A model generated the notes under the pieces. That model was not told the origin of the DNA. It saw nothing but the letters and a program-made list of their open reading frames with translations, and made no database searches. A stretch of DNA of 64,000 bases from Parietichytrium sp. I65-24A. Its lineage: Eukaryota > Sar > Bigyra > Thraustochytrida > Thraustochytriidae. Numbering within the stretch: position 1 is the first letter of the stretch; every line of letters begins with the position of its first letter. A program made the translations under genes and the position numbers. Below, piece after piece: positions 12,384-64,000 of this stretch. The stretch spans positions 372,001 to 436,000 of the forward strand of contig BLSF01000033.1 in NCBI GenBank assembly GCA_012862575.1. Direction: 5' to 3'.

Positions 12384-14612
12384 TTACTTGTAGCCTTCAC
12401 TTTTGCTCGCCACCTCATTAATGATCGAGCACCACTTGTCAGCGGTGTAATGCAGCTTGCTGACATCAATAGTCTGCAGTGCGCGGTTGCGCAGCAAGCA
12501 CTTCCCATCCACCCAAACGTCAGTCACCTGATGCCTGTTAGTGGCGTAGACAATATGGGACGCAACCGTGTAGGTTGGAATGGAGGTGATGTCTGAGAGA
12601 TCGATAGCAATCATATCGGCTTGTTTGCCGATTTCTATGGATCCACATTTGTCAGCCACTCCCAAGGCTTTGGCCCCGTTAATGGTGGCCATGCGAATCG
12701 CGTTCTCTGCTGGAAGTGACTGTGGGTCCTTGGAGACTCCCTTGGCCAAAATGGCTGCAAGTTTCATCTCCGCAAACATATCCAGCGAGTTGTTACTAGA
12801 TGCGCCATCGGTTCCGAGACACACATTCACGCCGGCGTCAGAGAGCTTCGCCACAGGACAGAAGCCGCTTGCAAGCTTGAGGTTCGAGGTTGGGCAATGG
12901 ACAACGCTTGATTTCCGCTCCGCCAGCAAGGCGATCTCTTCATCAGTGAGATGGCACATGTGCGCAGCTACGAGGCGATGATCCACACATCCAAGATCCA
13001 CAAGGTTCTTGAGCGGTCTGCAAGCCTTTGCGCACTGGTGGCAGAACTGGCTCTCGCGTTTTCCAAGCTCTGAGTCCTTCACCTCGCGCTCTGTCTCGTG
13101 AAGATGGATGTGGAAAGGCAGATCGTACTCTTTGGCCAGAGCGAAAGCGCTGAGAATATTCTCTTCGGAGACCGTATAGGTGCTGTGGGGGGCGCTGGTG
13201 AACTTGATCCTTGGGGAATATTTGTGTCCTTCAAACATCTCCCGCGCTTTTTCGAGGTAGTGAGCTGCATTTGTCGCGTAGTTGGATGGGAAGTCCAGCA
13301 TCACGCCACCGATAAAGGCGCGGATGCCCGTCTCGTCCGCAGTCTCAGCTGCAGCACCGCCGAAAAAGTACATGTCCGAGTAGCAAGTAGTTCCCCCTTT
13401 GATGAACTCTGCGCATGCGAGACGGGTTCCGTCGCGCACAAATTCGTCCGAAACACACTTGACCTCAGCTGGCCAAATCCTTTGGGTGAGCCACAAAGTA
13501 AGATCCATGTCGTCGCCAAACCCGCGCATGAAAACCATAGGGGCGTGGGTATGTGCATTGATCAAGCCAGGCATCAGAGCCGAGTCCGGCAGACGGATGA
13601 CTTCCAGCTGATCTGTCGAAAACATGCCGTACTTTGCATCCGCCTCCGTAGAAGGTAAGATGTCCATTATTTTACCATCGAGGAACACAACGGCGTGGTT
13701 GTCCAAAACGGCATTCTCCGAGTTCACCGTCAAGATGTGGCGAGCGTGGATGACCTTGTCGCACTTGATCTTCTCAGGGCCTTTTTCCTTGGCGGAAGCC
13801 CCAGCTCCGTGGTCACCGACCTCGGAGGCGGGCTCCTTGAGGGCGGCCAAAACCTCCGGGTAAGATTTGAAGTGTTTCAGCACAAGATGGACTGCGTTCT
13901 CGATTTTGGGCTTGTTTTTGGCTTGCTCAGCATAGAACTCTTCCATGGAGAGCTTTGGTCCAATGCCGTTCGCCATATTGTCCACGATGGTCAGCATTGC
14001 ATACGGAATCCCAAGCTCTTTCGCAATTGTGGCCTCGTGGGCTGCCGTCATGCCCACAACATCCCCAAACTGAGACATGAAGCGGATCTCAGACTTGGTC
14101 TCGAAACGCGGCCCGAGAGAGTTCATGTACACGCCGCCATCAAGTGGTCGCATGTCGCCTTGAAACAACGCATTGAGAATTTCTTGGCGCATGACCGGGT
14201 TGATCTCTGGGATGCAATGTGCGCGGTGGTCTTCAAAAGTAGAAAGAATCTTGTAAAAACAGAAAAAGTCGTCTGGAACCATCATAGACCCCATCCCAAT
14301 ATGAACCTTCATCGACCCCACCGAACAGACCGCCACCACTGCGGCTGCGTCCAGCACTTTAAACGCCTGCATGAGGGCCCTGTAGTTGACCAGGTGCGGC
14401 GGCGAGTACTCTTTCTCCACATCGCACCCATGCCTTTGCACGAACACCAATTTCACCTTCGAAGACAAGTCCCCGACGAAAGCTTTCACCTTGCCAAACT
14501 CCGTGTCCACCACGGTCTCATCTTTCGCGATCGTCCTGATCATCGTGCTCTTCAGCAGGCCGCTTCCCCCCACAACACCCAGCACCAGCTGACCTTCATT
14601 CCCGCTTGCCAT
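12384..14612 (-). CDS. Fused methylthioinosine/purine nucleoside phosphorylase - MTA/SAH deaminase
   Basis: One 742-residue frame without introns. Residues 1-260 are an MTAP/PNP-family phosphorylase: GGSG at 15-18, RHG at 60-62, GPRFET at 168-173. At 210-212 it reads V-D-N, where human MTAP has V-T-D of its adenine-binding loop and the Pseudomonas methylthioinosine phosphorylase has V-V-N, so a 6-oxopurine substrate is favoured. Residues about 283-742 form an amidohydrolase of the MTA/SAH deaminase (MtaD) type with metal ligands HTH (354-356), HLHE (503-506), a His near 551 and Asp602. The two steps would turn 5'-methylthioadenosine into methylthioinosine and then hypoxanthine plus methylthioribose-1-phosphate for methionine salvage. 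A Gly/Ala/Lys linker separates them. The sense-strand leader is GA-rich. Confidence 0.88.
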   Translation of the reverse strand: MASGNEGQLVLGVVGGSGLLKSTMIRTIAKDETVVDTEFGKVKAFVGDLSSKVKLVFVQRHGCDVEKEYSPPHLVNYRALMQAFKVLDAAAVVAVCSVGSMKVHIGMGSMMVPDDFFCFYKILSTFEDHRAHCIPEINPVMRQEILNALFQGDMRPLDGGVYMNSLGPRFETKSEIRFMSQFGDVVGMTAAHEATIAKELGIPYAMLTIVDNMANGIGPKLSMEEFYAEQAKNKPKIENAVHLVLKHFKSYPEVLAALKEPASEVGDHGAGASAKEKGPEKIKCDKVIHARHILTVNSENAVLDNHAVVFLDGKIMDILPSTEADAKYGMFSTDQLEVIRLPDSALMPGLINAHTHAPMVFMRGFGDDMDLTLWLTQRIWPAEVKCVSDEFVRDGTRLACAEFIKGGTTCYSDMYFFGGAAAETADETGIRAFIGGVMLDFPSNYATNAAHYLEKAREMFEGHKYSPRIKFTSAPHSTYTVSEENILSAFALAKEYDLPFHIHLHETEREVKDSELGKRESQFCHQCAKACRPLKNLVDLGCVDHRLVAAHMCHLTDEEIALLAERKSSVVHCPTSNLKLASGFCPVAKLSDAGVNVCLGTDGASSNNSLDMFAEMKLAAILAKGVSKDPQSLPAENAIRMATINGAKALGVADKCGSIEIGKQADMIAIDLSDITSIPTYTVASHIVYATNRHQVTDVWVDGKCLLRNRALQTIDVSKLHYTADKWCSIINEVASKSEGYK

Positions 14613-17297: not shown

Positions 17298-20200
17298 ATG
17301 AGCAAGTACGCGGAGCAGCAGATCTGTGGCGTCAAATCGATATTTTGGTGTGTGGCGACGCTGAACGCAGGTCTCTCGGCGCTCGGCAGAGAAGAAGAGG
17401 CTCTATGGTGAGTTCTCTGCCAGTGAAGGGGCGAGTGAAGCAGCACATGGCGAGGAAGTGTCCTGACGAGACTGGCTTTTACGTTTGTGTACATAGGGTC
17501 GAAGGGAGGACGGGGCGAGATGGAGCTGGCAAGATCGCCTTGGCGCTCAAGGATAGCAAAAGTCTTCGGCAGTTGGGGTAGGCCAAGTATTTCTCGCGCA
17601 GGCATTGGAATTTGAGATGTGGCGTTTTACTGAGCTTTTGTCGTGCTTTGCTGCTGACTAACTTCACGTCCTTTTCGAACAGTCTCCGAGGCATTGATGC
17701 TGGCCCCGAAGGGGCATTTGCAATCGGGCGCGCGTTGGAGCAGAGCGCTGTGCTGGTTTCGTTGAGGTACGCGCAACTTTGGAACTGGGGCACCCCATTT
17801 TTGTGGAAGCTTTTTATTAATAGCAAAATCTTTCGGACTTCGTCACTGACAACATTGTGCCTCCCTTTTAATAGTCTCTGGAACAACAACATTGGCGCCG
17901 AAGGTGCAGCATCGATTGCGCGTATGCTGGAGAAGAACGCTACGTTAACTTCCTTGGAGTACGTGTGACTTTGGCACCGGTTTCCAGAGAGCTTATTTTC
18001 CTTACTTAATTTATTCGTACTCTGTGGCCGACGTTTTCCATACTTATGTGCTTTTCGTTTGATTTTAATTAGTCTCCGACAGAATGACATTGGTGACGAA
18101 GGAACATCATCTATTGGCCTTGCTTTGGAGAAAAATACCAGGCTACTGCTTCTAAAGTATGTTTGAAAATTTTGAAAGTGGTGAACAGAGTCATGTGGCT
18201 GACGATTTTCATGCCTTTTCGGAAATAGTCTTGACTCGATTGGCTCTGGCATTGGAGGAATCAGAGCCATCGGCCGCGCGCTGGAGATGAATACTGCGCT
18301 GACTTCGTTGAGGTGAGTCAGTATGGCACCTGTCTCGTGACATGTTATGACTAACGAGGTTCATTCTTCTTCCTTTCTATATAGTCTCGCTTGGGACTAT
18401 ATAGACGATGAAGGGGGATCAGCGATCGGTCGCGCGTTGGAGAAGAATACCACACTGTCCCAGCTGATGTAGGTGTGAATTAAACGGTATAGTCGGTCTT
18501 GGGAAGAAGTTTTACATTGCTAAAACGTCACGTGCTCTGTGGCTATCTTTTCGGAACAGTCTTGATTGTAATTACATGCGCGCTGAAGGTGTTTCCGCAA
18601 TCGGTCGCGCATTGGAAATGAACACTGCCCTGACTTCTTTATCGTACGTGTGACTTTGACACTTTTTTGCCAAAAACGTTGGTGAAACTCATGCGTAGTG
18701 GCTGACAATATCATATCTTTCCGGATAGTACCGCGTGGAGTCACTTTGGCCTTGAAGGAGCATCAGCAATCAGCCGCGCGTTGGAAAGTAATACTGCGCT
18801 GACTCGGCTGAAGTACGTGTGACTTTGACGACAAAGTCGTTAAAAATATGACACCTTGTGATAGGCGTCGTGCTTTGCGACTGACATTTGATGGCTCTGT
18901 AATAGTCTTTGCGTGAATCTAGTTGAAGACGACGGAGCAATTTCAATTGGACGGGCGTTGGAGAAGAACACTGCGCTGACGTACTTGGAGTAAGTTGACC
19001 TCTGGCACTGATTTGGTTAAAGGCTTCTGGGCCCTACTGCCTCTCTCGTGCTTTGTGGCTGACGATGCTATGTCTTCGAAAATAGTCTAGGGAGGAATGA
19101 ATTCGGGGATGAGGGAGCATCAGCGATCGGCCGCGCGTTGGAGACAAATGCTACGCTGGCGTATTTGGAGTACGTATGGTTTTCTCAAGGATTTGGCACA
19201 ATGTTGTCGCTAGATGCCTCTTCTCTTTTTCGCTGACTTATATCTGTCTTTACAAAACAGTCTCCAGGAAAACAAAATTGGCGATGTTGGGGCATCGGCA
19301 ATCGGTCGCGCGCTAGAAAAGAATACTGCGCTGACTTCGTTGAGGTAAATGTGCCTGTGATTGTGTCTGGCTTCACGGAAAACTAATTTTTTCGTATTTT
19401 GTTGTGACCAAATTTCTAAACGTGTGTTGCAAATAGTTTGTGGAAGAATAGAAGAATCGGCGCTCAAGGAGCATCAGCGATTGGCCGCGCGTTGGAGACA
19501 AATGCTACTCTGACGACGTTGAGGTACGTGTGACTTTGGCTCAGGTTTCGTGGAACCGTCTCGAAGCGGCTAAACTTGCTTATCTCTTGTGGCTGACAAT
19601 TCCTTAGAATGCGGAAATAGTCTTCGGAAGAACGCAATCGACAACGAAGGAGCATCAGCGATTGCTCGCGCCTTAGAGAAGAACACTGTGCTGTCTTCTT
19701 TGGAGTACGTGTTTCACAGACAGCAATCCCGTCTCAGAGTGCATGTTTGGCTTCTTTGTGGCTGACAGTTTCATGTCGTTTGATTTTAAAGGCTCGGAGT
19801 GAACGACATTGGTGCCACGGGAGCATCAGCGATCAGCCTTGCGTTGGAGAAGAACACTGCATTAACATTTTTGAGGTACGTCTGACGTTGGATGAACTTT
19901 GAAAGCTTTAGTATCTTGGTAACTCCTCGCCTGATTTTTATCTGATGATATCAAATATTTTCGGAAATAGTCTATGGAGAAACGAAATCGATGATGAGGG
20001 AGCTTTAGCGATTGCAGGCGCACTGGAGAAGAACACCGTGCTGACTTCATTGAAGTACGTGTGAAGGAATTGCCTTGCTACTTTGTTGAGCTTTCAGCTG
20101 ACGAGTTCATGGTCTGAATTAGTCTTGGAGTGAATTTCATTGGCGATCAAGGAGCACTAGCGATCCGCCGCGCGTTGGAGAAAAACAATACCCTGACTTG

Positions 20201-20379
20201 CTTGGAGTACGCCTTCCTTGACATTTGTTTTGAAACTGTTCAATGCCTTGCTAACCATCTCGGGCTCTGTCGCTCACGATTTCATGTCACTTCGATTTAG
20301 TTTCTATGCGAACGATACTGATTATGAAGGCAGATCAGCGATCGGTAGCGGCTCGGAAAAGGACGCTGCGCTGACTTAG
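17298..20379 (+). CDS. Leucine-rich-repeat protein, one repeat per exon (18 exons)
   Basis: ATG 17298 has an in-frame stop just upstream. Exons: 17298-17407, 17497-17577, 17683-17766, 17875-17958, 18073-18156, 18229-18312, 18385-18468, 18560-18643, 18729-18812, 18906-18989, 19086-19169, 19261-19344, 19437-19523, 19621-19704, 19792-19875, 19971-20054, 20123-20206, 20301-20379. They total 1,533 nt and stay in frame, giving 510 residues. Every intron is phase 2, 68-114 nt, with a donor like GTACGTG, a branch-like GTGGCTGAC and an acceptor like AATAG. Each inner exon is 84 nt (two exceptions of 81 and 87) and encodes one 28-residue ribonuclease-inhibitor-like LRR: SLxxNxIGxEGASAIGRAL followed by EKNTALT. 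A scaffold or ligand-binding role is all the repeats imply; no NACHT, kinase or signal peptide is seen. The TAG lies inside the last repeat. Confidence 0.88.
17497..20300 (+). repeat. Tandem exon-intron units of the LRR gene
   Basis: Not only the 84-nt exons but also the introns are related: most begin GTACGTGTGACTTTGG and contain CTTTGTGGCTGAC before the acceptor. The duplicated unit is thus exon plus intron, about 155-200 bases, repeated some 16 times with divergence. Confidence 0.85.
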
Positions 20380-20545
20380 TTGGAGCATATTTGACTTTGA
20401 CACCGGTTCATAACATCATTCAGTACATCAACTTTTTCCTTGTTCGTTCTTCGCGTTTGACAAGTGTTTTTCCGAGGAGCATCAGCAATCGGTCTCGGGC
20501 ATGAGAAGAACACTGCCCTGACTTGCTTGGAATACGTGTGAATTT
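20380..20545 (+). pseudogene. Decayed LRR exon remnants after the LRR stop codon
   Basis: After the TAG at 20377-20379 the sequence still matches the repeat unit: TTTGACTTTGACACCGGTT is the usual intron start but its donor GT has become CA. Another worn exon runs about 20470-20533 (GAGGAGCATCAGCAATCGG, then GAGAAGAACACTGCCCTGAC), with lost bases, and ends in ATACGTG instead of GTACGTG. These pieces show the array was once longer at its 3' end. Confidence 0.75.
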
Positions 20546-21782: not shown

Positions 21783-24700
21783 TTAGGTCGCAGCTAGGAA
21801 GGCCTCCTTAGTTGCCCCGCCATCGCCCGGGGCTGAGTTGGAGCTGTTATATCCAAAAAGAGTTCGCTTGGGTCGTACGTAAGAAAAGCATGGCGCAGAC
21901 TGTGCCATTTCCACGACGGTGTTGACGTTGACATTGACTCCTGTTTCGTCGTCCATCATCGACTCCAAGATTTGCTGTCCTACATTCTTTGCATTGGTTC
22001 TCCATGATTCGTTCTCGGAGAGAGCCTTGTCAATGAGTTCGACGCACTGCTTGTAGAATTTGTTGATATGCTGTGTGACGGCAAAGGGTGGGTAAAAAGT
22101 CAGATACATATTTGCGCTGCGCCTGAACGCGCTTTACGAAATGCTTTTAGCCTCAACTTACGACTGGAAAACTTCCCACTCCCATATCTGAGACACGGCT
22201 TCCCCAGAATCTCTGGTCGAACAGCAGCACTCCAGTTACGATGACAGGTACACCGGACATGATAGCCTCGCCAGTCGTTCCGAGTCCGCCGTGTGCCACG
22301 ATTGCATCGAGTTGAGGGAAGAGCCGTCCGAACGATGCTCCCTTGTCCACAAACAACCTCTTTGCAGTCCTGAAGTCTTCGGCTTTGGCCTCCACGCTCT
22401 CGTTTCTCCCAGGATCGTCGGTGTGGTCACCAATTAAAGCAAAAACACAAACCTCTTCTTTGCATTCCGTAATCATGCGAATTGCAATACGCAAGATGTC
22501 GAGTCGCTCCACCGGCATGGAACTGAATGCAAGGCACACAAGCTTCCGGTTCTCCGCCCTCGCGCATCGGATGAAATCCTCTTGTGCTTCCGACAGTGGC
22601 GGAACACTGTCTCCACGGAGAAATATGTAATTTGTGAGGACTGTCTTGGGGCCCCAATCACTGCAATTCGAATTACAAATAAGTATTCCGTGCTCTCCGA
22701 CACAGCGCAACAAACTTATTCAAGAAGCACATCAACTTACCTCGGACGGCCACCAAATGCATACTCGTTTATAGGCACAATTAGCGGAATATTTTTTTCC
22801 TGTAGCTCGACCCATGTCACACTTTGGAACCCATACAGCAGACTACCCCCAGTGTACCGTCTAATCTTCTCGAGCCCACGACGTTTTCGCATGGCGTTCA
22901 CAGAGATCGTAAATGGGTTATTCTCGGCAATCACTTTAAGGGATGAGAACAGCTCGTGTTTGCTATCCATTCCACGATCAAGTTCAGACATCTTCCTGTA
23001 TGCATCTTCATCCAATGTCACAAGAGGAGGATACTGCTTGGAAGGGATACAAGTCGGTTGTAGAATGAACCCCACTAGCGGAATTTTGAGCGCCTCGCTC
23101 ACCAACATCGCGATCGATGCCGTGGTGAAGCCAAACATTAGATAGTCAGGCTTCATCGTCTTTGCCCAATAGAACAGTGCCGGCTCGGAGTCAAAGAACT
23201 CTGCCTCGCTAAAAGCGAGCATGATATGCTGCATCGCCTCCGACTTTAAGTTCATTGCCCACTTTGAAATTTTGGAGTCGACCCTCTTTTGCGTGTCCCC
23301 TCCGCTTATACGAAAGCGGATCGCTCCGCGATCGAGTTTGCCGCTGTAGGACTTCACATAGTCTCGATAACGCAACTCCGTACAAATCGTGATCATCCAG
23401 TTGTGCTGGTTGGCAAGCCCACGCGCGAGCGCGATGAAAGGCTGAACGTCGCCCCTTGTGCCACGCGTGAATACCATTAAGTGCTTATCGTACTTTGTGG
23501 AGTCGTGCGGTGAGCGGACGGGATACGGCCACGATGCTGGCATGGTGTGCTTGTCGAGGCCCACATGCAAAAAGGTGACCATAGAGGCATCGTCGTTGGT
23601 AATCACGCGCGCAGAAGTGTCGCTCAATACCAGCGCGTGAATTGGCCGTTTGCAGAGATCCTTGACAGTGACTTCAGTCCGGCCCACTTCTTCGTCTTTC
23701 ACCAGACGATGCTTTATATACAGGCGAAATTCGAGCTTCGCCATGAGGGGAATTCGTCCCAAGGATAATGCCTGGTTCCAAGAAACCCCAGAGTTTGGCA
23801 GATGAACGACAGGCCGAGTGGTCTGCAAATGGGTCTGTTCATAGAAAACTTTCACGTAATAGTGGGACTCGCGAAGGCTTGGCCGGCCGGAATCGGGAGG
23901 GTTAACTACCTTGACACACATAAGAACAAGATTGCCGGGTGTGTCGCGTTCCATGTGCTCAGAGTGAATACTGCCAACCGCGTCCGGGGGCGTCATTCCT
24001 GCAGGGAGGGATCTGCGACCTGGTGCGCTAGATTTGCTTCTGACAGGGGAGATAGCGGACTGTACTCGCCCCTGAGCGACAGATACGCCTAGCACCGGTG
24101 GGCTAGCAGGTTTAGACGCTGCCGCCCGACCAGCATGTACCAGGCTATCATCCGTTGTGATGGACCTCGATCCCATCAAATTGTGCGAGCTTTGCTGCTG
24201 CTGGGGAGTTGCTAGACTGCCTTGATTTTGACGAGTTGCGGTTCGCAGCCTCTCCCGGCGGCGCAGGTATTCGGAAGTCAGAGTAGCCCGTGGGCTTCCA
24301 TCAGCACTGCTATCATCTTCCAAGTTATGATGGGATCCTTTGCGAAGCATTTTGCGGAAAACGCTTGGCTTTTTAGTCAGAGGTTTCTGATCAGCTTCAA
24401 GAAGCTTCTGTATGAATCTGCACTCACATTCCTCCGCACTCCTTCCTGGGACCGCGTACATGACAAAATCCCATTCTTCGCCGTACTTGGTGACTGCTGT
24501 GAACAATAGCTCGTCCTCTTCTGCTGACCACGGCGCCATTACGCGTCTGCGCTCGGCTGGTTGAGTTCCTCCCTGCATGGACTGCAGAAACATCGCCTTC
24601 CCTTGCTCCGCTGCGAAAGCCCGGTTATCCACATCTCCTCCCAGCCCCCCTGGCGTCCTGCTTGCAGCGCTGTTGTTCGACGAGGAAGTGGAAGAGGACT

Positions 24701-24986
24701 TGAGTACCGCCTCGGTTGGCGCGCCAAGCGAAGAGAGGGTTGGCGAGAATCTAAACAACGCCTCCTCTGCAAACCCGGCGCTGCCTTGTTCCACACTGAG
24801 GACCATCCCGCGGCGCACCAGCTCGCAGCACACCACCTTTGCCTCTCCAGAGTCTCTGGGACCGGTCAGCGCGCGCAGCAAATCCGCACCGCGAAAGCAT
24901 TGCAGGTAGATATTAAGTCCCAGTTGCACATCACGAACTCTCACGCGGCTCTGCGCCACACGTGCGGCCTCTTCTACAGGGTCCAT
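21783..24986 (-). CDS. DEP-SANT-C2-like-glycosyltransferase (UGT80/Atg26-type GT domain)
   Basis: Three exons: 24986-22741, 22660-22162 and 22070-21783, with introns of 80 and 91 nt (both GTAAGTT donors; acceptors TTGCAG and CACACAG). Frame is kept and gives 1,010 residues. Domains: DEP-like (about 18-82, CFRGADLLRAL), Myb/SANT (about 148-197, APWSAEEDELL with EEWDFV), a serine-rich linker, a C2-like beta domain (about 350-478), then a GT1-family glycosyltransferase (about 500-1000) with TRGTRGDVQPFIALARGL at its start and HGGLGTTGEAIMSGVPV near residue 872. The GT part is close to sterol 3-beta-glucosyltransferases, which attach UDP-glucose to membrane sterols. DEP and C2 would aid membrane binding; the SANT domain is unexplained. 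The sterol substrate is inferred. Confidence 0.85.
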
Positions 24987-36622: not shown

Positions 36623-39600
36623 TCAGTCATTCTTTTCAACAGCTGCCCAGCATAACCTGCAAGGCGGAATTGGGAGATCATCATCATCATCATCATCGTC
36701 TTCGTCATCGTCGTCGTCTTCATCGTCGTCGTCATCTTCCTCAAAGTCCCCGTCGACATTCAGGATTATATACTTTGGGGGCTCCGAGCCGGCAACTGTG
36801 CGATAAAGATGGGAGATAGTCTGGTCTAGTCGATCATCTTGGCCAAACATGTCGTTGTAGAGCGTTATATCGCCCCTTGTTGAGATTGATGTGACTTCGA
36901 ATTCGAAGCGCTCCGAAAAGTAGTCCAGAATGTCTTGCACCGTTTGGTCGCCAGTGAAATCGAGCATCGTCCAAAGATTTACCGCCAAAGTGCGAGACTC
37001 TGCATTAGCCTTAATGTACTTTGGTTTCCCGAACAACTTGGTTTGGCAGGCATTTGGCTCGAAGGAAGCGTATGAGTTGACAGCCAAATTGAGATTGCTG
37101 GACCGGTATTTTTCCAAAGGGTGTTTTTGAACAACTTTGTACAACTCTAAACCAATGAGGCCAGTCACGGCAGCTGTTGTAGTTGCAATTGCCGGTATGA
37201 TCCTTCCCACGATCCGCTTCGCTTGCAGTCTGTCTACCAGCGGAATGTCGTATGACTTTGCGCGGATACAAGCAGCAGCATAAATCAAGTCCAGGTGCAT
37301 GTTTGCATCATCATCTTTTTCAAAGACCTGAGCGTTCACAACACTAACAGGTACGTCCGACATCAACTTTGCGAGCTCCTTTTCTTTCTTCTCTTCTGTA
37401 GAGCTCAGAGACTTTTTCGCGTCTTCCTCCTCTTGTTTTTTCAAGAGTTTAGCCTCCTCCTCGTTCTCGGGCACCTTGACGGAGTCGTCCGCCTCGAATT
37501 TAGGGGGCGCTGGAAGGCGTTTTACAATTTCCGTAACCTGTGCGCAAAAGTTTTCACCACAACTCTCATTTGGAGGGATGACGCCGTAAATCTTGGCGAG
37601 TAAGAATGACGCAGCCTGGACAAACAAGATGTGAAGAGGGTTTTGGGAATCAAAGTCTTCGACCTTGGGTGGCCTACGCTTTCCGCTCCAGAAACGCGTC
37701 CCTTGGTCGTCAACAGTCTTGTCCAACGGGTGTACGTGCAGCAGCAGCAGGATCTTATTGACAAAGAGCTCTTCGAAACGAAGGCGGGCAAGCCAAACGC
37801 ACTTTTCCAGATCAATACCAGACGTGAAGTCTACCACGTAAGGGAAGAGCTTCTCAGGATGATCATCAGCCTCAATGCCAACCAGAACTGAGCGAGCCGT
37901 CCGTAACCGCTGCAGGCTAGTGCTTGGCTGCCGATCGAGCTCTGCGAGATACTTCGTTTTATTTTGCAAGAACGCCTCTCCCTCCATAATATCAACGCTC
38001 ATATATTTTTCAAAGACAGCATCACGTGCCCAGGTCAATGTGTGCTCGATCAAATTGGGGTACGCGTGAAGGGTGCAGGCCGGAATCTCGTCCCCGCCCT
38101 CGTCCTTCACGCTATCAGAGTTGTACGACTCCGTCAAATATGGAATGACAGGCAAGGTATTTGCCTTTGTCCCCAGCGTGCCGCTTTCTAAAAGTGGCTT
38201 CTGGTGGAAGACGCATTTGGAGTCCACGTATTGCCGAGCTACCACGTTATCGAGCGCATTGATGACAACATCCAATCCGCTCCAAAAGGCGTCATCAAAC
38301 TTTTCCTCCGTTTCAGGAGATACCTTCAGCTCAAGCGACTTCACATTAAAGCAAGAGTTCATAGCTTTGCTCATCTCGGCGGCAACAGTGGACTTCATTT
38401 TGCCAACATGCTGCGGCCGGAATAAAAATTGTCGGTTTAGATTTGAAACCTCAATACCATCCATATCCGTGACCACACAGCTTCCTGATCCCGCTCCATC
38501 TGTTGAAACCCCCATCATAGCAAGATTCTTTAGCTCCTCGCACCCTAACGCTCCAGCTCCGACCAAGAAACAACTCAAGTCTCCAAGTCGTTGTTGGAAC
38601 TCGCTTCCAAACACAGCAGTCTGTCCAGCGTACCGAGCAAACTTGTCCCAAATCTCCGACCCGTCAAGTTGCGCTAAAGAGGGGTATGTCTCTGCACGAG
38701 CTGCAGCCGTCAACGACTCTGGGGCTGCGAAATGGAGCCATTGGTGTATAGGAGTAAATTTGCCGGAATTGCTTTGAGGACTTCTTGTGCGGCAACCCCA
38801 CCGATGAACGCCGCCAATGGGCAGAGCTTTCCGCTGGCCACTTGAGCTAGCGCTTGAAGTTCCTCAAACACTGCGCTTTGCCCTTCGAAATCGGTAAGAT
38901 CCCGCTTAGCGATGTCCACCACAGCTTGCGCATCCTGGGGGCTCCCGGGGGACGGTAAGCGCCCATGAGCTTCCTGAAAGTCCCAAAGCGCCTTGAGTAG
39001 AGCGTGAAGCTTTCTTGGTTTTTCGAGGTCTTCCCAATTAATTTGTACAAAATCTGAAGGACTTGCATAGCTTTTTGAAAAAGATTCAAAGCTCAGCTTT
39101 GTGGGCATCTTTAGCTGCTGGAAGTGGCCTCCGCCATCGTACGCCGAAATATCAAGACCCTCCTTCGCAATACTGAATGCAAACCCATCCAACTGTTTTC
39201 CATCTGTTGATGCAACTTTTTCCAGTCGAACCTGCCGCGGCTTGCCATCGCAAAGCGCTTCTAAACCTTTCAAGCCATGAAATTCGACAAAGTCGCCTTC
39301 CGCAAGCCCGTGGTGTTTCTCATCTGAAGTGGTGAACTGTATTCTGGCAGACCCCGTATCTGCTGAATCCTGAATTTCTGCGACCTGCACCACAATACCA
39401 AGCTTGGCAGTCTCGCCGTCTGAATCGAGTACGGTAAATTCTGACCCAAAATCGTTGAAAACGTATCCGTATAATCCTAACGTTCCTGCACAGCACAGTC
39501 TGATTGGCCGGGACGCCGCACGACAAAAGTCATCCAAGGCCTGTATGCTCTCCCGAGAAGAGTCCACGACAACAATAACATCGTATGCGCCATATCCTTC

Positions 39601-39930
39601 GTCATCAAACGTTAGTTCGTGGCACGGGCGAGAGTTTAGCTTGACGTGACTATTCAGGTCTGCCAAGCCGCGAAGCAGCACCTCACTTCTTGATAGTTGA
39701 GAACCTAAATCTGCTTCTTGAAGGAAAAAGTTTGCAGCCAGGTCTTTGACAGCAGGGCGCGAGTCATCAGCGAGAGTGAGAGAATGAACGCCTGCAAGCA
39801 TGAGATTTTTGGCAATTTCAGAACCCAGGCCAGCGAGCTCACCAGTCACCAGCACCTTGCTACGCTGCACCTTCTCCTGCGCCTCCTTGCCCAGCACATA
39901 GAGCTGCCGCGAATAGAGCTGCTCGTCCAT
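36623..39930 (-). CDS. UBA1: Ubiquitin-activating enzyme E1 (UBA1) with one apparent frameshift
   Basis: ATG 39930 (MDEQLYSRQLYVLG) opens the inactive adenylation half. The first frame runs to AAQEVLKAIP, and the second continues with GKFTPIHQWLHF, which matches the human GKFMPIMQWLYF. The switch lies at about 38763-38766 and looks like one missing base in a CCGG context, with no intron signal. The rest is complete: the active adenylation domain (LVGAGALGCEELKN, DMDGIEVSNLNRQF), catalytic Cys in IPACTLHAYPNLIEH (about residue 618), and a C-terminal ubiquitin-fold domain. Total about 1,106 residues. E1 activates ubiquitin with ATP and passes it to E2 enzymes. A lone break in an otherwise perfect essential gene suggests a sequence error more than a dead gene. 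The ubiquitin-fold domain carries an expanded Asp run before LPIPPCRL. Confidence 0.93.
36677..36742 (-). repeat. GAT/GAC triplet repeat coding an Asp/Glu run in UBA1
   Basis: About 22 codons, nearly all GAT or GAC with a few GAA/GAG, encode an acidic run in the ubiquitin-fold domain just before LPIPPCRL. Other E1 proteins have a much shorter acidic loop at this place. Confidence 0.88.
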
Positions 39931-41413
39931 ATTCCTCGCTCGCACTCTACTTTCCCGCCAACACACAGCTGCGCAAGGTCTCGAACGTCCAGTTGAGGTT
40001 CCGCTCACTCCGAGGCCTCACTCTGCACTGCGCCCACTTGGCTCTGCCTGTGTCTGAGTCTGTGTCTGCGCTTTTGTCTATGTCTACGTCTACGTCTACG
40101 TCTTCAGCTCGGCTTTGTCCTTGTCAGTCGCGAGGTACGCCAGGTGTGCGCGTCGCGTCGGTTGTGTCGGTGGACACAGTGGACACCAACAAAAAGACAA
40201 ATGGAGAAAGCAAAAGTATCTTGTCGATGGGTGTTCTTTTGTGTTCTTCCGACTCGAACTCGTAGTCCTCCGTACGCTTAAGCACTCGCTACCCTCGACG
40301 AGACGCTCGCTGTCCATCTGGTGTCCATGATGAACATGACGGCCATGACGGCCATGATGCTCACGTGCCTGATCCTGCGAAACTTTGACAGAGCATTTGT
40401 TCTGATCTGGCAACTTTATTCGCCGTCAGTCAATATTGAAAGGTTTCGCGAGTAATCTTGATCGAAATCACTACTAATCATACAAAAATCGAGAAGAATT
40501 CCGAATCGCCTCTCAAAAAATGCACAACGGAAAAAGAAGAAGGGAGAGCCGTGTGGTGGGGTTATGTGGGTCATATGACCCGAGAATACCCGAGACCCAC
40601 CCACGTGGACCCACCTTCAAAATTTTCATTCTTTCCTGTTCACTCAGCTAACTGTGAGACCCCTGAGTGTGAGTGTTGTGAGTGACGAGTCCATCCAAGT
40701 TATGTGAATGAAGAGAGAGAGAAAAGAGAGACAAAGAGCGCTAACTTTAGGTCAGGCAATTATCGCAAGCCCATCTACCTGCCCGGGTAGCGCAAAGGCA
40801 AATCTGATTTCTGAATTCTGAATTCTGAAGATTTTTTGACAGTGAATCCTGAGCACAGTCTCAGTGTGTTTACCTATTGGATACAATAGGGTGCCAGGAG
40901 AAGATGTCTCGAGAAAAGTGTTGCAACCTTCAGAATCAGACTTGCCAATGAGAGAAGGAAAAGACACTTTTCAGAATGGCTGTGAGGCGGAATGAGACAC
41001 AGTACTGTCACGGTGTACATCACAGTACCGGTACCGATACTCTCAGTATCTCTCAGTGTCGAGTGAGTGAGTGAGTATCTTTGGCTTCCGCAGAGTTGCC
41101 AAGGCTCTGCATTCTGAAGAGCACTGAAAAGCGCTGAAGAGCACGGGTCAAGCTGGTCAAGCCCACCCCTCTGGAAACGCTGCAGAAGCCACCGATTCGG
41201 AGCTGAGAAGCGAAGGGGCGAGAGCGTTACTCGAAAGCTGCCAGTCCCGCAACTTCAGAGCGACTCTGTCAAGCTGAGAGCAGCACTGCTGAAAACGGAG
41301 GGAGCGTTTGGAGGACAGAAGAGCCCTGCGGTACGACAAAACCAAGGCCAAGACCAAGACCGGGCTCGGAAGTGAGGCGAGCATTCGCAGGCGACTCGTG
41401 AAGGGAAACAAGG
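39931..41413. other. Intergenic region, no supported gene
   Basis: Holds CTGAATTC tandem repeats (40809-40830), a GGTACCGGTACC-like palindrome (41026-41040), a GTGAGTGAGTGAGT run (41061-41076), a TGTCTACGTCTACG repeat (40076-40103) and a duplicated GACGGCCATGAC block (40339-40360). No coding frame is supported. Confidence 0.5.
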
Positions 41414-44586: not shown

Positions 44587-46020
44587 AGAAAATCATATTC
44601 ATGATCATACAATTCCATGAACATATGTCATGATTGTCATGATGGAGAAAAGGATCAACTTGAATCAGCCTGGGTCAACCGCCTGCCTACATAGTGCTGG
44701 CTTAGTACTCGGGTACCTCTGTCGGCGAATGTCAGCTAGCGCTGCAAAAGCACAAGAAGGAAGGAAATGCAAGGAATCGCCGAATGTCAACGACGAAAGA
44801 AGTGACAGTGAAGATGCATATCTGAGTTCTGAATTCCGAGTTTCTAAATTTTGAATTACGAATTTACGAATTCTGGAGTGCGCTGAGTGCGCGTGAAAAC
44901 GTCAAGTAACTCGGAGGTGTTTCGACCAACAGGGAGGAATGGCGCGGCGCAAGATCCGCTCCTCCGTCTTGATTAGGTTCCTGATCTCGTTCTTTTGTCC
45001 TGTTTCATGCTCTGACTGTGAGGAAGGTGAGGAAGTTGTGAGGAAAAAAGTTCGCTTTTCTGAACTTGGCCTCGCACTCCTATCTGCTAGATAGAGCGAT
45101 CCCACTACTCAACTGCTTCGTCTGCACCGTTGGCGGCAACCTAGAGTTGGTGCTAGCGCCGCCGGCGGTTCTGCAAAACTGACTGTGAGTGAAGAACAGA
45201 AACTAGTGATTATTTTAGATCGATTTGGAAAGTTACTGAGTGTGAGTACTGAGTACCGGCAATGACATTGCGAGACAGTGTCAGATCAGCAACTCGAGGA
45301 NAGAAAATCATATTCATGATCATACAATTCCATGAACATATGTCATGATTGTCATGATGGAGAAAAGGATCAACTTGAATCAGCCTGGGTCAACCGCCTG
45401 CCTACATAGTGCTGGCTTAGTACTCGGGTACCTCTGTCGGCGAATGTCAGCTAGCGCTGGAACAGCATAAGAAGGAAGGAAATGCAAGGAATCGCCGAAT
45501 GCCAACGACGAAAGAAGTGACAGTGAAGATGCATATCTGAGTCCTGAATTCTGAGTTTCTAAATTTTGAATTACGAATTTACGAATTCTGGAGTGCGCTG
45601 AGTGCGCGTGAAAACGTCAAGTAACTCGGAGGTGTTTCGACCAACAGGGAGGAATGGCGCGGCGCAAGATCCGCTCCTCCGTCTTGGTTAGGTTCCTGAT
45701 CTCGTTCTGTTGTCCTGTTTCATGCTCTGACTGTGAGGAAGGTGAGGAAGGTGAGGAAGGTGTGAGGAAAGAATTTCGCTTTTCTGAACTTGGCCTCGCA
45801 CTCCTATCTGCTAGATAGAGCAATCCCACTACTCCACTGCTTCGTCTGCACCGTTGGCGGCAACTTAGAGTTGGTGCTAGCGCCTCCGCCGGTTCTGCAA
45901 AACTGACTGTGAGTGAAGAACAGAAACTAGTGAAAATAGATTATTTTAGATCGATCGATTTGGAAAGTTACTGAGTGTGGCAATGACATTGCGAGTCAGT
46001 GTCAGATCAGCAACTCGAGG
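44587..46020. repeat. Near-identical 0.7 kb direct repeat around a single N (45301)
   Basis: 44587-45300 and 45302-46020 are the same sequence with a few substitutions and small indels (for instance a GAGGAAGGT unit difference near 45030/45740). The N separates the end of one copy from the start of the other. This pattern fits two overlapping contig ends that were joined without merging, perhaps two alleles, better than a true duplication. No gene is seen within it. Confidence 0.85.
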
Positions 46021-46643
46021 ACCAAAGCACCAGAAGTGAGTGCACCAGAGGAGCACCAGAGGAGCTCCAGAGGCGGTCGCGACTTGGAGCGTCTGTCTGT
46101 GCCTGTCTTGGTCGAAAGCGCCAGGGGAGAAGAGCCGGAGTCGGAAAAGGAAACAGGTGAAACAGAGGAAAATGGCCGCGAAGAAGGTCAAGATAGGCAA
46201 GGTGTGGAGCACCATGCCCGGGGAGTGGGAGCAGGACCACCACTACTATCCCCGAGCGCTGAACGCGCAGTTGCATCCGCTTGTGGTCTCATTCATGGGC
46301 CTTGATAATTTGAGGATTGNCAGTGTCAGATCAGCAACTCGAGGACCAAAGCACCAGAAGTGAGTGCACCAGAGGAGCACCAGAGGAGCTTCAGAGGCGG
46401 TCGCGACTTGGAGCGTCTGTCTGTACCTGTCTCGGTCGAAAGCGCCAGGGGAGAAGAGCCGGAGTCGGGAAAGGAAACAGGTGAAACAGAGGAAAATGGC
46501 CGCGAAGAAGGTCAAGATAGGCAAGGTGTGGAGCACCATGCCCGGGGAGTGGGAGCAGGACCACCACTACTATCCCCGAGCGCTGAACGCGCAGTTGCAT
46601 CCGCTTGTGGTCTCATTCATGGGCCTTGATAATTTGAGGATTG
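45997..46643 (+). repeat. Second overlap repeat around a single N (46320), with truncated gene start
   Basis: 45997-46319 and 46321-46643 are nearly identical (few substitutions). The first copy contains the start of the ATP-grasp-like gene (ATG at 46172) but stops at the N; the second copy (ATG at 46496) continues into the whole gene. I read the first copy as the redundant end of a contig, not as a separate gene. Confidence 0.85.
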
Positions 46644-48381
46644 CGACGCGGTACTGCCATCTCCATCCCGAGGCAGATAAGGAAAAGCTCCTTCAGGTAC
46701 TGAGTTATGTACCGCGCGACTTCAGGTGGGCTGGCGCTGATTTGTTCTGTGTCACTAACGAAATGGCTCAGAGGCAGATGATCGTTATCGAGACAAACTC
46801 CTGCCCATCGGGACAAAAGAGCATGCCTGCACAGTCGAATGAAAATGACACAAGCAAAGGAACAAACTACTACACCATGGTCCAGCAGACCTTTGGCACC
46901 TTGCTCAAGGAAATGGACACAGACCTGCCCGACGGTGTATTCGCAACCATCTTTGACAAGAACCCAATGGAGGCCACTGGATATGCTCAGTGTATGTCCG
47001 ACTTTCTCGGCCGCAAGGTGTTCTTGGTCGAGTTTTTTCGGACGGATCCGGACCCTCCTGCAAGATGGACGAGCGATGGCATTCTCGAAATTAGGGTGAA
47101 AAAAGAGGAAGCAGAAGCTGTGGACTACCTTGACCAAAAGCTTATCAAGCCATGTGAACGGGAAGGTCACGTTTGGATCCCAGTCAAGGCTGCATTTCGA
47201 TACGTTACCATCGCGCCATGGACTCGTATTCCCGTCGTAAGTTTTTGTTTTTGAAATGTTCGTTGGTTGAGACAACTTCTAACTCGTTGCGCGCAAATCC
47301 CCTAGGTTACCAAAACTTTGATTCTGAATCCAATCATCTCTTGCCTTTCTGGTGGACGCAACAAGCTCGTTGCATCGAAGGCGTATGACTTCAAAAACGC
47401 CGAGCTGTCCGGAACTGGACTTCGTATTCGCACACCAGAAACCATCACTGACGTTTCCTTGACGGAGATTCCTCTCTACATGAAGTCTATGAATTACATC
47501 GGGGTCATCAAAGTTCCGTACAGTAACGCTGGCCAAGGTGTTTTCACTATCACCTCCAAACAGGAGCTCGACGCGTTCATGGATTGGGCCAAAGACAACC
47601 CGTATGACCAGTTCATTGTCCAAGCCTTGGTTGGCAACTCCACATGGAGCAGTGCTTCCAAAGACGGGACGTTTTATCACGTTGGAACGGTTCCAAACGT
47701 GAAAAATAAGACGTATGTGGCGGATTTGAGGATGATGATTTGCGCTACACAAGATGGCTATCGTCCACTTGCCATCTATGCCCGAAGAGCCAAATCCCCT
47801 CTCACCGAAAAACTGCTGAACGTGGAGGATTCATGGGACATGCTTGGTACCAATCTATCCGTTCTCAATCCGGACGGAAGCTGGGACAGTGACACGAACC
47901 GCCTCATTCTTATGGACCGCAAGGATTTCAACCGACTTGGAATCTCTCTGGATGGTAAGTTCAACGGCCTCTTTGTCCAGGTGTTCTGAAGCCTTTGTCT
48001 ATCTAACGTGCGTGTTTTCGCGGCCGAATGCCCATTCTCTCCTCCCTATACGTGTGGTTTCTTTCGTACTGTTCTTGCTGTTGTAGATGTAAGTTGGTTT
48101 CGAATCTCTGCTGTAAATTTGCCAAACGCTTTCGTATCAACTGACAGCAACCTATATCGTCATGTGATGAAATCAAAAAACAGCTCATTGATGCTTTCAT
48201 TCAGACCGTATTGTCAAGTACTGCTATTGACCAAATGTGCAAGCGTTTGCTTCACAACGGGAAGTTCGAGGCTGAGCTCTTTGCCTCGCTCAATAAGGAC
48301 CCTAGTTTTATCAACGAGGTACTCATTCTTGGCAAGGAGACCGAAAAGAAAGAAGACGACACAAACAAAATTGCAATGTAG
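46496..48381 (+). CDS. ATP-grasp-like protein of unknown substrate (three or four exons)
   Basis: Start ATG 46496 ([12 protein letters not shown]). Exon 1 ends at 47236 (GTAAGTTT), exon 2 is 47306-47954 and the last exon is 48148-48381, ending NKIAM. To keep frame between the last two, either a 2-nt microexon (48087-48088, flanked by TTGTAG and GTAAGTTGG) is used, giving 541 residues, or exon 2 runs on to 47980 with a weak GTGTTC donor. The sequence has [14 protein letters not shown] (about residue 101), then [12 protein letters not shown], an [12 protein letters not shown] segment and YVADLRMMI, in the order expected of an ATP-grasp fold (lysine-bearing strand, then Asp/Arg strand). It may ligate a carboxylate to an amine; I do not recognise the family. 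The leader is purine-rich. Confidence 0.62.
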
Positions 48382-48735: not shown

Positions 48736-51700
48736 TTACTTGCCCGCAACTTGAACTTTGATGTAGTGCGTCCACGGCGGGAGGTCTTGCATTCCAACGC
48801 AAGAAACGAGCAGCTTGCACGTACCTGAGGTTCCTGAGGATTTGACAGTCACCATGGCACTTTTTCCACCATCGATTTTCATCGTCTGAGACCGGGCGCC
48901 ATTCACAGTGAAATCAGCGGAATCAACAATGAATTTGAATTCTTTTGGCTGACCAAACACATTGGTGAACGGTATCTGAACACCTTTGCTAACATCTGAA
49001 ATTTCGAATGGCCCCAAAGGTCTTGGCGGGTCGCATTTCCCGTACAAGGTGCACGCATACACGCCACCGTCGGGAGAACTCACTGTCAAAATATCCCGGA
49101 CCTCTCCCAGTGCCTGTGGCTCGAACACGATACTAACTCCAGCTTCAACGCCATCCCAAGAAGGGCTTGCCGGTACCTTGACACTTGGAGTAATGACTCT
49201 AAAGAACAACGGCTGGCTAACTTTACACGTGTACTCCACCGGTTTGGTAGCAAAGCTCGTAAACCGGAATACCTGCTCGTGTTTAGCACCAAGGGTGGTG
49301 GAGTACTGGAGTGAGCGTTCTTGCTGCGCCGCGGTTGCCTTCAAATCCAACGTGTACGTGTACGATCCCAGCTCTGCGCTTTTGAGAGTTAACTTTGCTT
49401 CTGCCTTCTCGACTTCCAGCAGCGGCCGGTACTCAACTTCAAAAGACCCTTCTTGGCTGTTTTTGATACTATTCAATGGCCGAACGCGAACATTTGGATT
49501 TGTGCATGTCCACCACTCTTTCACGTTTGGAGCATCAAAGAAAACCTCCTTCGCTGTCCCATAAAATGGGTTGGCAATCTGAATCACGTGGCAGATTGCT
49601 TGTCGAACTGGAGTTTCAAGACTAATTTTGCCTTGCTCTTCTGGAGCCGACACTGACATTTGCACAAGGTAAAATGCGTACTCCCCTGTGGATTCGTTGG
49701 TAAAGGTTATTTTTGCTTTCGAAGAGCCCTCCACGTACCCAGTGAAAGAAAGCTTATAAGCTCGCTCGTGGCCTTTCGGCAAGTCGAGGAATTGCGGCCC
49801 GCTATAAAAGTGAGAATCGGAACCTTCTAGCCTTTCGATTTTCACGGTCAGTCGTTGAGACGTTTTTGCCCAATTTTTCAGCTGCAGCGGGACAACTTTA
49901 GTTTTCTTAGCTGGGCACGTGTCTTGCACAGTTCCTTCCGAGTCTGGAGCGGTAGCCTTGCCGTGCAACTTGAAAAGAAGAGCATTCCCATCTGGAAGAG
50001 GAAAGAAGATTGACCCGCTGTGCGCCTGCCCCTCGCCAGTCATGCTTGTTGGGTTGTAAGTGATGCTGTATTTTGCTTTCGCTCCGCCAGGAACTTCGAT
50101 TTTCTCCGCTCCGGAGTAGGCTGACCCAACAAAAGTTGGACGCAAGATCCATGACACTTTGGAAGGATTGGAAAGCTCTATTTCCTTAGTAGTCTCGCAT
50201 CGAACCTTGCTTTCAAAGTTGAGCTCTTGCACACCTTCTTCAGGTTGAGAAATACTCGATCCGACCAGAGTCAAAGAGCTCACGGAGCGTTGCGAGCCTT
50301 GAACGGTCAACCTGAATTCTCCACGGACCTCCTCCATAACATCGGCAGGCGAAAAGGTGGCATCTAACATGAGCTGTCCGTGTGGCTGCAGGAGGCCCTC
50401 CGATGGAAAAATGCTGAACGCACTTCCTCGGCTCAACTTCTCAAACTGGAACTGTGCAGAGATATCTCCACAGTTTTCGATTTGCACCTTCTTTGTAAGG
50501 GAGCAGGACTCCACCACAGTGCCGAACGAGATATTGCTGAGGTCTAGCTTGACATCCTCCGCCATACATGAACCAAGCACAGTGACGAGCTTTCTCTCGC
50601 TTCCATTGACCTTGATGAAGATTGGCTCAGAAAATGCCAACAACCTCTTGTCAGGGCTAAACGCGACTGCAATAGAGCAGGTCTCCCTCGGGTTGAGGGA
50701 TAAGCTGGAGCCCAATGGGGGTAGGAAGCTGATGCTGTGGTCTTGAAACCTTCCGCTTTCTTCGCTAAGCGTAAAGGTGGCCGAGCGCTTGGAGCGATTG
50801 GTGATGTTAATTCGCTTCACGACGCGCTGCCCGACTCGAATGGAGCCAAGATTGACCGTGCCTTCTTCTGGATCCTCAAGCTCAACTCTACATGGAATTC
50901 CTTCTCCAGAAAAGTGAACATCGACTCGCGAAAGGCCGTTGAGCTCAAAAGTAACGCAAGCCGCGTATGCCTGCAGATTTCTTGGGGTGAACGTAAAAGG
51001 AACTGCCATAGACTCTCCTGGCTGTAGAATCCTCGCCGCGCAGTCAACCTCCAAGAACGCATTTTTCTCGAACAAACAATCGATGCTAACCGGCGCGTCG
51101 GACTCATTGTTTGAAATGGTCAGATTTTGCTGGAACGTGGCTGGCGGACTTCCTCGCTCGGGAACAAAGCATGGGCCGAGCTCCACTTTCATTGTGCTGA
51201 ACGTGACGCTCGGCCTCACGGCTCGAGCACGCAGGCTCAAATTGTACATCCTTGACCCGGCTACGTGGACCCCAAAGGCAACGTTCTCCAGCCGAAGTTC
51301 CTTTCTTGGGCTGAAAGTGATCGTCAAGGAAACACTCTCTCCGGGAGGAACTGTCCCGCGCATTGCTGAAAAAGAGAGTACCTTCGGGTCAAACTCATCA
51401 GTACGCGGGGGGTTAACGACGAAGTCAAAGTGGAACTTTCCGCCGTTATAGAGCTGCACGGTTCTCTCTACTCGATCATTGACCTGCACGTCACCAAAAG
51501 ATATCTCATTGCTGGTACTTCCTCCACTTGCCAGTTGGACGTCTTTCTGGCCTGTTTCTTCACTGTCCGATACCAGAACTAGACGGTCGTGAATCGCACT
51601 TCCTTCGCCTTTTACATTGAGAAGAAGGCGACTCGGCTTGCGGTTGACTACACAGGCAAGGTTAAAGTTGTAGGACTTTTCGCTCGACGGAGAAAACCTT

Positions 51701-62988: not shown

Positions 62989-64000
62989 TTCTCTCGTCCT
63001 CGCCTTTCCCTCTCCTCTCGTCTCCTCCGTGCAGCAAAGTTCTGAAGCAGTCTGCGTCGCTTTCGACTCTATTTTGCACCTCTGCACCTTCCACGAAGCG
63101 CCAACCCTCCACTCGCGCGGAGTTGCTCCTTCTCGCCTTCCTCTGCTTGTAAGCTTGTCCCTCTGCTTCTTCCGGCGCACCGATCAGTGCATCCAACAGT
63201 CACCCGCCTTGGCCCATGAACGAGTGTGCCGGGTTACAAGCTCTCGCGTGGTGTAGACCGAAAGGACCTTTGCTGTTGCAGACAGAGGGAATGCAATGTA
63301 TTTGTTAGGCCTATTGGTTTTATGGAGTAACGATGGTGAGCGAATGAATAAAAGAAAAACCAGCAAGCTCAGCTGTGAGACCTTCTCTTTTCTCTCTACT
63401 AGCGATATAATTTTCCAACCCGGAATTCTTGAGTTTTAAACGCGACGAATTTCTTTACAGTGAACCTCCCCTTCGGAGTCGCAATGCAGACTTTGACTCC
63501 AAGCCTTGAAAGTACTGGCGTTAACGCTCTCTCTCCCTCGGGCGTCGATGTGGACCTCGCCTCCGCTCAAGAAATAAGATGGCACTCTCGTGACTTTGGC
63601 CAGTGCTGAGCATTGGCGTCTCTAGAGACTCGTGGGACCAGACGGCAGAGACCAGACGGCAGACAGACAGCAGACACAGCGGACACTGCAGACAGAAATA
63701 GGGATAGGGATAGGGATAGGCAGGGGTTTGTTTGGTTTGTTCCTCGACGGAGCAACGCTGTGGCAATGTGGCAACCGTCGGGTCGGGAGGGTGCCGCTCC
63801 AACGGTCTTCTTTTGGGCCTATCACGAAGTAATGATCCCTATGGTAGCATAATCCTTGCATTCACGGTACTGTTGGTATGTGTTGGTAGTAACTTGTGTG
63901 TTGGTGGGGCTACCGTAGGAGCTACCATCTAGTATCCTATTGTTCCAGCAGGAGTCTATGGTTACTTAGGCGTGATAACCTGGTACTAATACTTGTACAC
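62989..64000. other. Upstream region of HYDIN to the window edge, no supported gene
   Basis: The first 150 bases are the GA-rich leader of HYDIN on the minus strand. Beyond lies non-coding text with a four-unit ATAGGG run (63697-63722) and GACAGACAGCAGAC-type repeats. A GTTGGTAGTAACTTGTGTGTTGG duplication near 63870-63905 is short. No frame is supported before the window ends. Confidence 0.5.
63697..63722 (+). repeat. (ATAGGG)4 microsatellite
   Basis: Four ATAGGG units in tandem. It resembles a telomere unit only loosely and stands inside ordinary sequence. Confidence 0.85.

Follow-up and report, generated by a model that had tools for sequence, protein, structure and literature searches.

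A dispersed family of one-repeat-per-exon leucine-rich repeat genes in Parietichytrium, probably diversified in the germ line for recognition

The stretch of 64,000 nucleotides (nt) analysed here, referred to as the window, covers positions 372,001 to 436,000 of contig BLSF01000033.1 in assembly GCA_012862575.1 of the thraustochytrid Parietichytrium sp. I65-24A. It harbours a gene made of leucine-rich repeats (LRRs), each encoded by an exon of its own. This locus belongs to a dispersed family of modular LRR genes, which we consider probably diversified in the germ line, likely for the recognition of non-self. The unit anatomy is a short exon encoding an N-terminal cap (N-cap) followed by 84-nt exons between phase-2 introns of about 100 nt, each specifying one 28-residue LRR of the ribonuclease inhibitor type. 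This type is recognised by the 28 residues of each module and by the LxxLxLxxN motif followed by a helix pattern, and matches of the LRRs in PDB include ribonuclease inhibitor 4per (E 4.6e-24), 5irm (E 5.1e-20), which we take to be an NLR of the NOD type, and NLRP3 chains (about 6e-14).

The window gene runs on the forward strand from the ATG at 17298 to the TAG stop at 20377-20379, and its 18 exons add up to 1,533 nt, or 510 amino acids (aa), exactly as laid out in the initial annotation. All 17 introns are GT-AG and in phase 2. Exon length is indeed 84 nt with few exceptions, being found in 14 of the 16 internal LRR exons, while the other two measure 81 and 87 nt. The splice sites proposed earlier were correct but not their uniformity, since GTACGTG donors occur in 6 of 17 introns and AATAG acceptors in 7 of 17. 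Nor are the modules of this gene near-identical, as had been claimed: the exons share a mean identity of 64% (55-77%) and the intron interiors are barely alignable, with 45% identity against 42% for shuffled sequence, from which it follows that the modules are old and diverged. A module model built from paralogs only, applied to the 64-kb window, identified 17 modules, all on the forward strand between 17678 and 20539, with E values from 1.3e-13 to 2.1e-24 and the next match at E 0.78. The gene thus ends where it was annotated to end (20379) but the array continues, and the degenerate module beyond the stop (Table 1) is the relic of a once longer array.

The 42.5-Mb assembly (172 contigs) was searched at the DNA level with the window gene. 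The 147 matches obtained represent, by our own grouping, at least 38 places besides the window, so that the proposed search for paralogs of the same intron layout did yield similar modules elsewhere; with 40 of the 88 first candidates scored, this family count is a lower bound. Twenty module-bearing places were fetched, and numbers such as L009 or L014 denote module-bearing or domain-matching places elsewhere in the genome. The fetched places and the window gave 262 raw module hits, 215 of them exactly 84 nt long at first pass. Hits with E > 1e-3 were dropped, leaving 255, donors called two bases early were shifted and one window row was set by hand; after this filtering and correction 222 of the 255 modules measure 84 nt and 221 are clean (84 nt, AG, GT, no stop, no N). 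In the paralogs most introns measure 95-108 nt, and intron identity across the loci of the 20 fetched places is 73%, compared with 39% after shuffling (units with 60-130-nt introns, window excluded). It is therefore the exon-plus-intron unit that has been repeated, as had been suggested, and the intron homology on which that suggestion was built is weak inside the window gene but clear in its paralogs.

Seventeen of 25 module-bearing loci, window included, share a first exon of about 37 codons. Of the eight loci that do not share it, the sequence fetched for L010, L033 and L035 begins at the array or within it, and the match in L009 is weak (E 0.004). When N-cap profiles were built leaving one out, that of the window gene was recovered by the other seven at E 5.7e-13, and those of L014, L027 and L021 at 8.3e-17, 1.1e-12 and 2.3e-10, respectively. 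Uninterrupted LRR_6 frames are also present in the genome (at least 39 matches, 150 of 372 candidates scored), and intron-split LRRs are therefore characteristic of this family and not of every LRR gene here. No entry of viral_contigs matched an exact module pattern.

Roughly half of the 20 fetched places (L010, L011, L014, L015, L018, L022, L023, L024, L026 and L028) have their arrays at most some 13 kb from a contig end, which reflects either a subtelomeric location or assembly breaks at repeats. In L017 (2615-7680), two arrays are bounded at both ends by LRR exons of a different, more divergent type (SSLAEAL), and these exons are a possible bridge to other LRR genes.

Variation among the modules is concentrated in few residues. 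Entropy in 207 clean paralog modules reaches 3.0-3.8 bits at codons 2, 3, 5 and 26, followed by codons 8 (2.2) and 9 (1.6), and is at most 1.3 at all others. Together with the intron-split codon 28, codons 2, 3, 5 and 26 form the x positions of LxxLxLxxNxI, five residues per repeat, and in ribonuclease inhibitor these x positions line the concave face, as is established for this LRR type. The upstream exon supplies x26 and two bases of x28, the downstream exon x2, x3 and x5; the intron at codon 28 is thus situated inside the hypervariable patch, and exon exchange therefore re-pairs two halves of one strand. Codons 2, 3, 5 and 26 show a nucleotide identity of 0.25-0.43 across all three codon positions, against 0.73 in paralog introns, and within the window gene it is only 0.37, 0.37 and 0.32 at codon positions 1, 2 and 3 of these four codons. 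The 221 clean modules, from 21 loci, display 198 distinct amino-acid combinations at the four codons, whereas 200 random sets of four other codons gave a mean of 39 and a maximum of 80. In 160 pairs of units (introns of 90-112 nt) whose introns are 5-10% apart, 60% of the hypervariable nucleotides differ compared with 11% of scaffold third positions. Amino-acid change at the hypervariable codons amounts to 3.06-fold (2.36-4.01) the synonymous change of the scaffold in 66 independent pairs.

In the fetched paralogs the LRR arrays lead to alternative 3′ exons, which encode ROC-COR-TIR, a probable membrane segment or a kinase followed by a cysteine-rich tail. The 3′ exon was called as the longest phase-2 open stretch behind an AG at most 420 nt past the array, which is a choice, the splicing being predicted; the predicted stretches comprise 844 aa in L027, 1,015 in L024, 952 in L022, 1,019 in L014 and 816 in L009, the last containing an N run. 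Pfam Roc, COR-A and TIR_2 were matched at all five LRR-ROCO loci scanned (L021, L027, L031, L032 and L035; in L035 the array is represented by a single partial module where the contig begins). COR-A has 11 matches in the genome, 10 of them above cut-off, and five of the six COR-A places fetched have LRR modules nearby, L035 a piece only. The best PDB matches of the L027 3′ exon are LRRK2 and bacterial Roco chains. The TIR domains of all five ROCO loci carry a Glu in the same column, aligned in a weak match (E 0.0094) to a Glu of 7xoz, which is presumably the catalytic residue.

Pkinase (Pfam) was matched at L014, L022 and L024, and the kinases of these loci and of L033 keep HxD and have DFD instead of DFG. 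Their cysteine-rich tail contains four CxxC and has no Pfam match; when the L024 kinase and tail served as query, at least 22 matches with E < 1e-60 were obtained, some of which are pieces of one gene (86 of 186 candidates scored). A 3′ exon in which a hydrophobic stretch is followed by RKRR, as read by eye, is common to L018 and L023; Pfam returned nothing significant for this exon, and its sequence suggests that the stretch is a probable membrane segment. Each of these two loci has two first exons and two arrays, and it is the second array that precedes the exon with the hydrophobic stretch. Membership in the NLRs was rejected for the 3′ exons scanned, as neither NACHT nor NB-ARC was among their Pfam matches; no genome-wide search for NACHT or NB-ARC was made.

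Duplication, of modules one at a time or in blocks, alters the arrays, and 5′ regions and 3′ exons are recombined between genes. L009, L012 and L013 contain identical exons next to each other, three in the case of L013, and five-module blocks occur in duplicate in L012 and L015, in support of the unequal crossing-over proposed in the initial annotation. The nearest relative of a module lies in the same locus in 81 of 221 cases, in another locus in 121 and is tied in 19, where shuffled labels give 8.6 within the locus. Modules are therefore both duplicated locally and exchanged between loci, with the qualification that nearest-neighbour counts alone give no dates of events. The 5′ regions of L014 (kinase type) and L018 (membrane type) are 86% identical over 785 nt and their 3′ regions are without match, which is direct evidence of recombination between the 5′ and 3′ parts of different genes.

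The internal exons are multiples of three between phase-2 introns, so that skipping keeps the frame, and the earlier view that such one-LRR units can be gained or lost without frameshift is supported. The same property would allow diversity to be made within the individual, by alternative splicing through skipping or swapping of exons or by somatic rearrangement, and alternative transcripts are reported for the LRR exons of brown-algal ROCO genes in the available part of PMC11378527. Germline duplication alone, however, yields the same structure, and we regard diversification within the individual as unlikely.

Several observations weigh against a germline-diversified family for recognition. 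Among the 262 raw module hits a stop is present in 13, AG is missing in 7 and GT in 11, and the frame of L021 shifts near the P-loop. One of the six COR-A places fetched, L034, is without a nearby module. The TIR matches in PDB are weak, and L035 searched alone gave none. In PDB the LRRs match structural proteins from cilia and related complexes best, ahead of the NLRs. Within the hypervariable codons the ratio of nonsynonymous to synonymous differences (pN/pS) is 0.95 (0.74-1.25, 66 pairs). Finally, a signalling exon is absent from the window gene, whose last module is decayed.

The last of these points bears on the status of the window gene, which is either an LRR-only member of the family or a relic. 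Its 510-aa product consists of the N-cap and LRRs and has no ROC and no COR, and hence not the ROC followed by COR of a ROCO protein; with no signalling domain present, the term receptor is taken from the family alone. The recognition-type receptor envisaged in the initial annotation accordingly finds support in the paralogs with ROC-COR-TIR or kinase and in the variability at exposed positions, but not in the domains of the window gene. As a relic, the gene would be a former LRR-plus-signalling gene that has lost its 3′ exon and is decaying, and its modular structure would reflect the past of the family and not a working product. In line with this, the last module (20301-20383) carries an in-frame stop, is without donor and is succeeded by a degenerate module, the neighbouring frames scanned (part of all frames) contain no ROC, COR, TIR or kinase domain, and several paralog arrays (L010, L011, L013 and L026) are followed by fragments resembling the ROCO exon. 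On the other hand, every internal LRR exon (16) and every splice pair (17) is intact, and in the 14 clean 84-nt modules of the window gene identity outside the hypervariable codons is 0.73 and 0.76 at codon positions 1 and 2, far above the 0.51 at position 3 or the level of the introns. This points to long selection on the protein, possibly ended recently, and we hold the relic to be a possible but somewhat unlikely explanation.

A simple excess of dN over dS inside the hypervariable codons was rejected, pN being approximately equal to pS. The ratio is close to one because these codons also show elevated synonymous change, and since plain dN > dS is not found within them, selection is inferred relative to the synonymous sites of the scaffold. 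The conserved Asn codon 4, located in the block formed by codons 2-5, differs synonymously in 0.35-0.47 of pairs and the conserved Asn codon 21, outside the block, in 0.00-0.07, a contrast which holds under three ways of pair choice although it is raw, with codon preference uncontrolled. The 12-nt block occurs in 186 distinct forms in 207 modules, and clearly different backgrounds were found in 1 of 25 pairs with identical blocks. Hypermutation by block swapping was rejected as the main route on the latter ground, in the fetched loci. The Asn contrast, the rarity of shared blocks and a pN and pS that are both about three times the pS of the scaffold could be read as the work of a mutator acting on the block beyond selection and gene conversion. 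Old block alleles under selection with gene-converted flanks would nevertheless give the same pattern, and scaffold codons 1 and 13-15 are raised too; a mutator therefore appears quite improbable. The pattern of variation fits either old block alleles kept by selection together with homogenisation by gene conversion, or locally raised mutation, and we favour the first of these. It is equally doubtful that diversification is targeted to codons throughout the family, in such a way that introns and scaffold are homogenised and codons 2-5, 26 and the split codon driven near-random, synonymous positions included, with TIR-GTPase, kinase, membrane and free LRR outputs forming an anticipatory repertoire in a protist.

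The ranking of the PDB matches could be taken to indicate that the family is simply a structural or housekeeping one, such as LRR proteins of cilia or the actin system, whose exons are modular but which has no role in recognition. LRRs of the ribonuclease inhibitor type do occur in ciliary complexes, such chains are among the best PDB matches, and a HYDIN-like gene is present in the genome, from which it follows that the organism has or had cilia. Structural proteins top the list, however, because this type of LRR is not specific to receptors, and the large copy number, the alternative TIR, kinase and membrane 3′ exons and the variability at exposed positions would all be unexpected in such a family. 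We consider this explanation very unlikely.

Most likely the LRR solenoid of these genes is the part that binds ligand, with specificity deriving from the five exposed residues of each of about 5-25 repeats. Binding would then be relayed through the ROC GTPase-TIR or kinase parts in the paralogs. LRR-only products, such as that of the window gene with its N-cap, 16 LRRs and a stub, may act as soluble partners or decoys, or may be heading to loss. Diversity would arise in the germ line by unequal crossing-over, gene conversion and selection for change at exposed residues, and the likely role would be recognition of non-self in the form of a pathogen, prey or mating partner.

Table 1. Exons and related features of the LRR locus in the window
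Feature	Position	Strand	Remarks
First exon, N-cap MSKYAEQQICGVKSIFWCVATLNAGLSALGREEEALW	17298..17407	+	last codon split by intron; donor GTGAGTT, phase 2
LRR exon 1, divergent, 81 nt, VEGRTGRDGAGKIALALKDSKSLRQL	17497..17577	+	phase 2, GT-AG; no match from the module model, placed by frame and LRR pattern
LRR exons 2-11, ten of 84 nt	17683..19344	+	phase-2 introns of 72-114 nt between
LRR exons 2-6	17683-17766, 17875-17958, 18073-18156, 18229-18312, 18385-18468	+	
LRR exons 7-11	18560-18643, 18729-18812, 18906-18989, 19086-19169, 19261-19344	+	
LRR exon 12, 87 nt, one additional codon	19437..19523	+	
LRR exons 13-16, four of 84 nt	19621-19704, 19792-19875, 19971-20054, 20123-20206	+	
Terminal exon, decayed LRR module with in-frame TAG 20377-20379	20301..20379	+	expected donor after 20383 absent
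Degenerate module 3′ of the stop	20475..20539 (about)	+	paralog-only model E 4.9e-14; no acceptor or donor found

The neighbours of the window gene are long single frames (a myosin, a HYDIN-like gene and an amidohydrolase fusion), and to the extent of these neighbouring frames this agrees with the earlier remark that the other genes are nearly intron-free. The HYDIN-like gene, on the reverse strand at 48736-63180, is an unbroken frame of 4,814 aa with Ig domains of the HYDIN/CFAP65 type and suggests motile cilia. On the same strand, a PNP_UDP_1 nucleoside-phosphorylase domain and an amidohydrolase domain share one frame (12384-14612), as do a Myb domain and part of a glycosyltransferase domain of family 28 (22737-24986). 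A ubiquitin-activating E1, also on the reverse strand (36623-40008), is spread over two abutting frames, 38710-40008 and 36623-38713, and represents a gene with an intron, a frameshift or two genes. At 45997-46644 a unit of 324 nt is tandemly duplicated with 98% identity.

Elsewhere in the genome, L029 (1-1130 and 1450-1670) has, at a contig end, a Copia-like polyprotein frame (YVDD read by eye) next to a fragment from the 3′ part of 18S rRNA. Pattern searches of the genome for 18S rRNA gave 3′ ends only and the middle part was not found; the text GTCGCACC after the universal site is presumably stramenopile-like. Elicitin had no match in the genome and likewise none in the controls, and FabA/FabZ had no match in the genome and was matched in 9 of 14 controls; these absences weigh against a plastid-bearing alga or a typical thraustochytrid and establish no identity.

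Single-LRR exons are found in vertebrate NLR genes (NOD2, NLRP), the parallel drawn in the initial annotation. The likeness holds for the ribonuclease inhibitor type of the LRRs and for a detectable sequence similarity, but the genes described here differ in having a ROC GTPase or kinase and no NACHT or NB-ARC in the 3′ exons scanned, and in that the LRRs precede the signalling part; brown-algal LRR-ROCO genes and the 90-bp LRR exons of Tetrahymena are closer parallels. Like LRRK2 and other Roco proteins, the paralogs match ROC and COR-A, and, as noted for L027, find their best PDB matches among them. Unlike in LRRK2, it is a TIR and not a kinase that lies behind COR in L021, L027, L031, L032 and L035.

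Zambounis et al. are said to have described, in 2012, brown-algal LRR-ROCO genes with shuffled LRR exons. According to the available part of a more recent study, brown-algal ROCO genes have 72-bp phase-2 LRR exons of about 23-24 residues with selected concave residues, and LRR-ROC-COR is their sole domain structure (Teng et al. 2024, PMC11378527). As far as that part of the study describes them, the two systems have in common one LRR per phase-2 exon (in all 17 introns of the window gene and in the same register in the paralog modules), LRRs placed before ROC-COR in the five ROCO paralogs though not in the window gene, variable or selected residues on the concave face, and expansion in number. 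By the same account they differ in that exons here are of 84 nt and 28 residues, in that a TIR is found behind ROC-COR (at all five loci scanned) and in the additional presence of kinase exons, membrane exons and LRR-only genes.

The LRR genes of Tetrahymena, in the available part of the report on them, have exons of exactly 90 bp, introns nearly all in phase 2, ectopic recombination and a large family, and its authors state there that no other eukaryote is known with such uniform exons and suggest a single origin in Tetrahymena (PMC6564038). On that basis, arrays of equal-length LRR exons, phase-2 introns, signs of ectopic recombination between genes and a large family are common to both, whereas here the exons are of 84 and not 90 nt, far fewer loci were found and GTPase-TIR and kinase 3′ exons are present. 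Searches of the open-licence literature returned no description of phase-2 arrays of 84-nt LRR exons linked to ROC-COR-TIR or kinase. The family resembles the brown-algal and the Tetrahymena systems, which are candidate families of recognition receptors, is by exon length a member of neither, and adds TIR, kinase and membrane outputs.

The contrast between Asn codons 4 and 21 within one exon provides a sharp means to separate selection from targeted mutation. Equal-length phase-2 arrays with one LRR per exon have hitherto been reported as a peculiarity of Tetrahymena and brown algae. The different exon length and the ROC-COR-TIR or kinase 3′ exons described here suggest that this architecture arose more than once as a means of building recognition repertoires from LRRs, and that introns are retained in these LRR genes by at least one eukaryote otherwise poor in introns.

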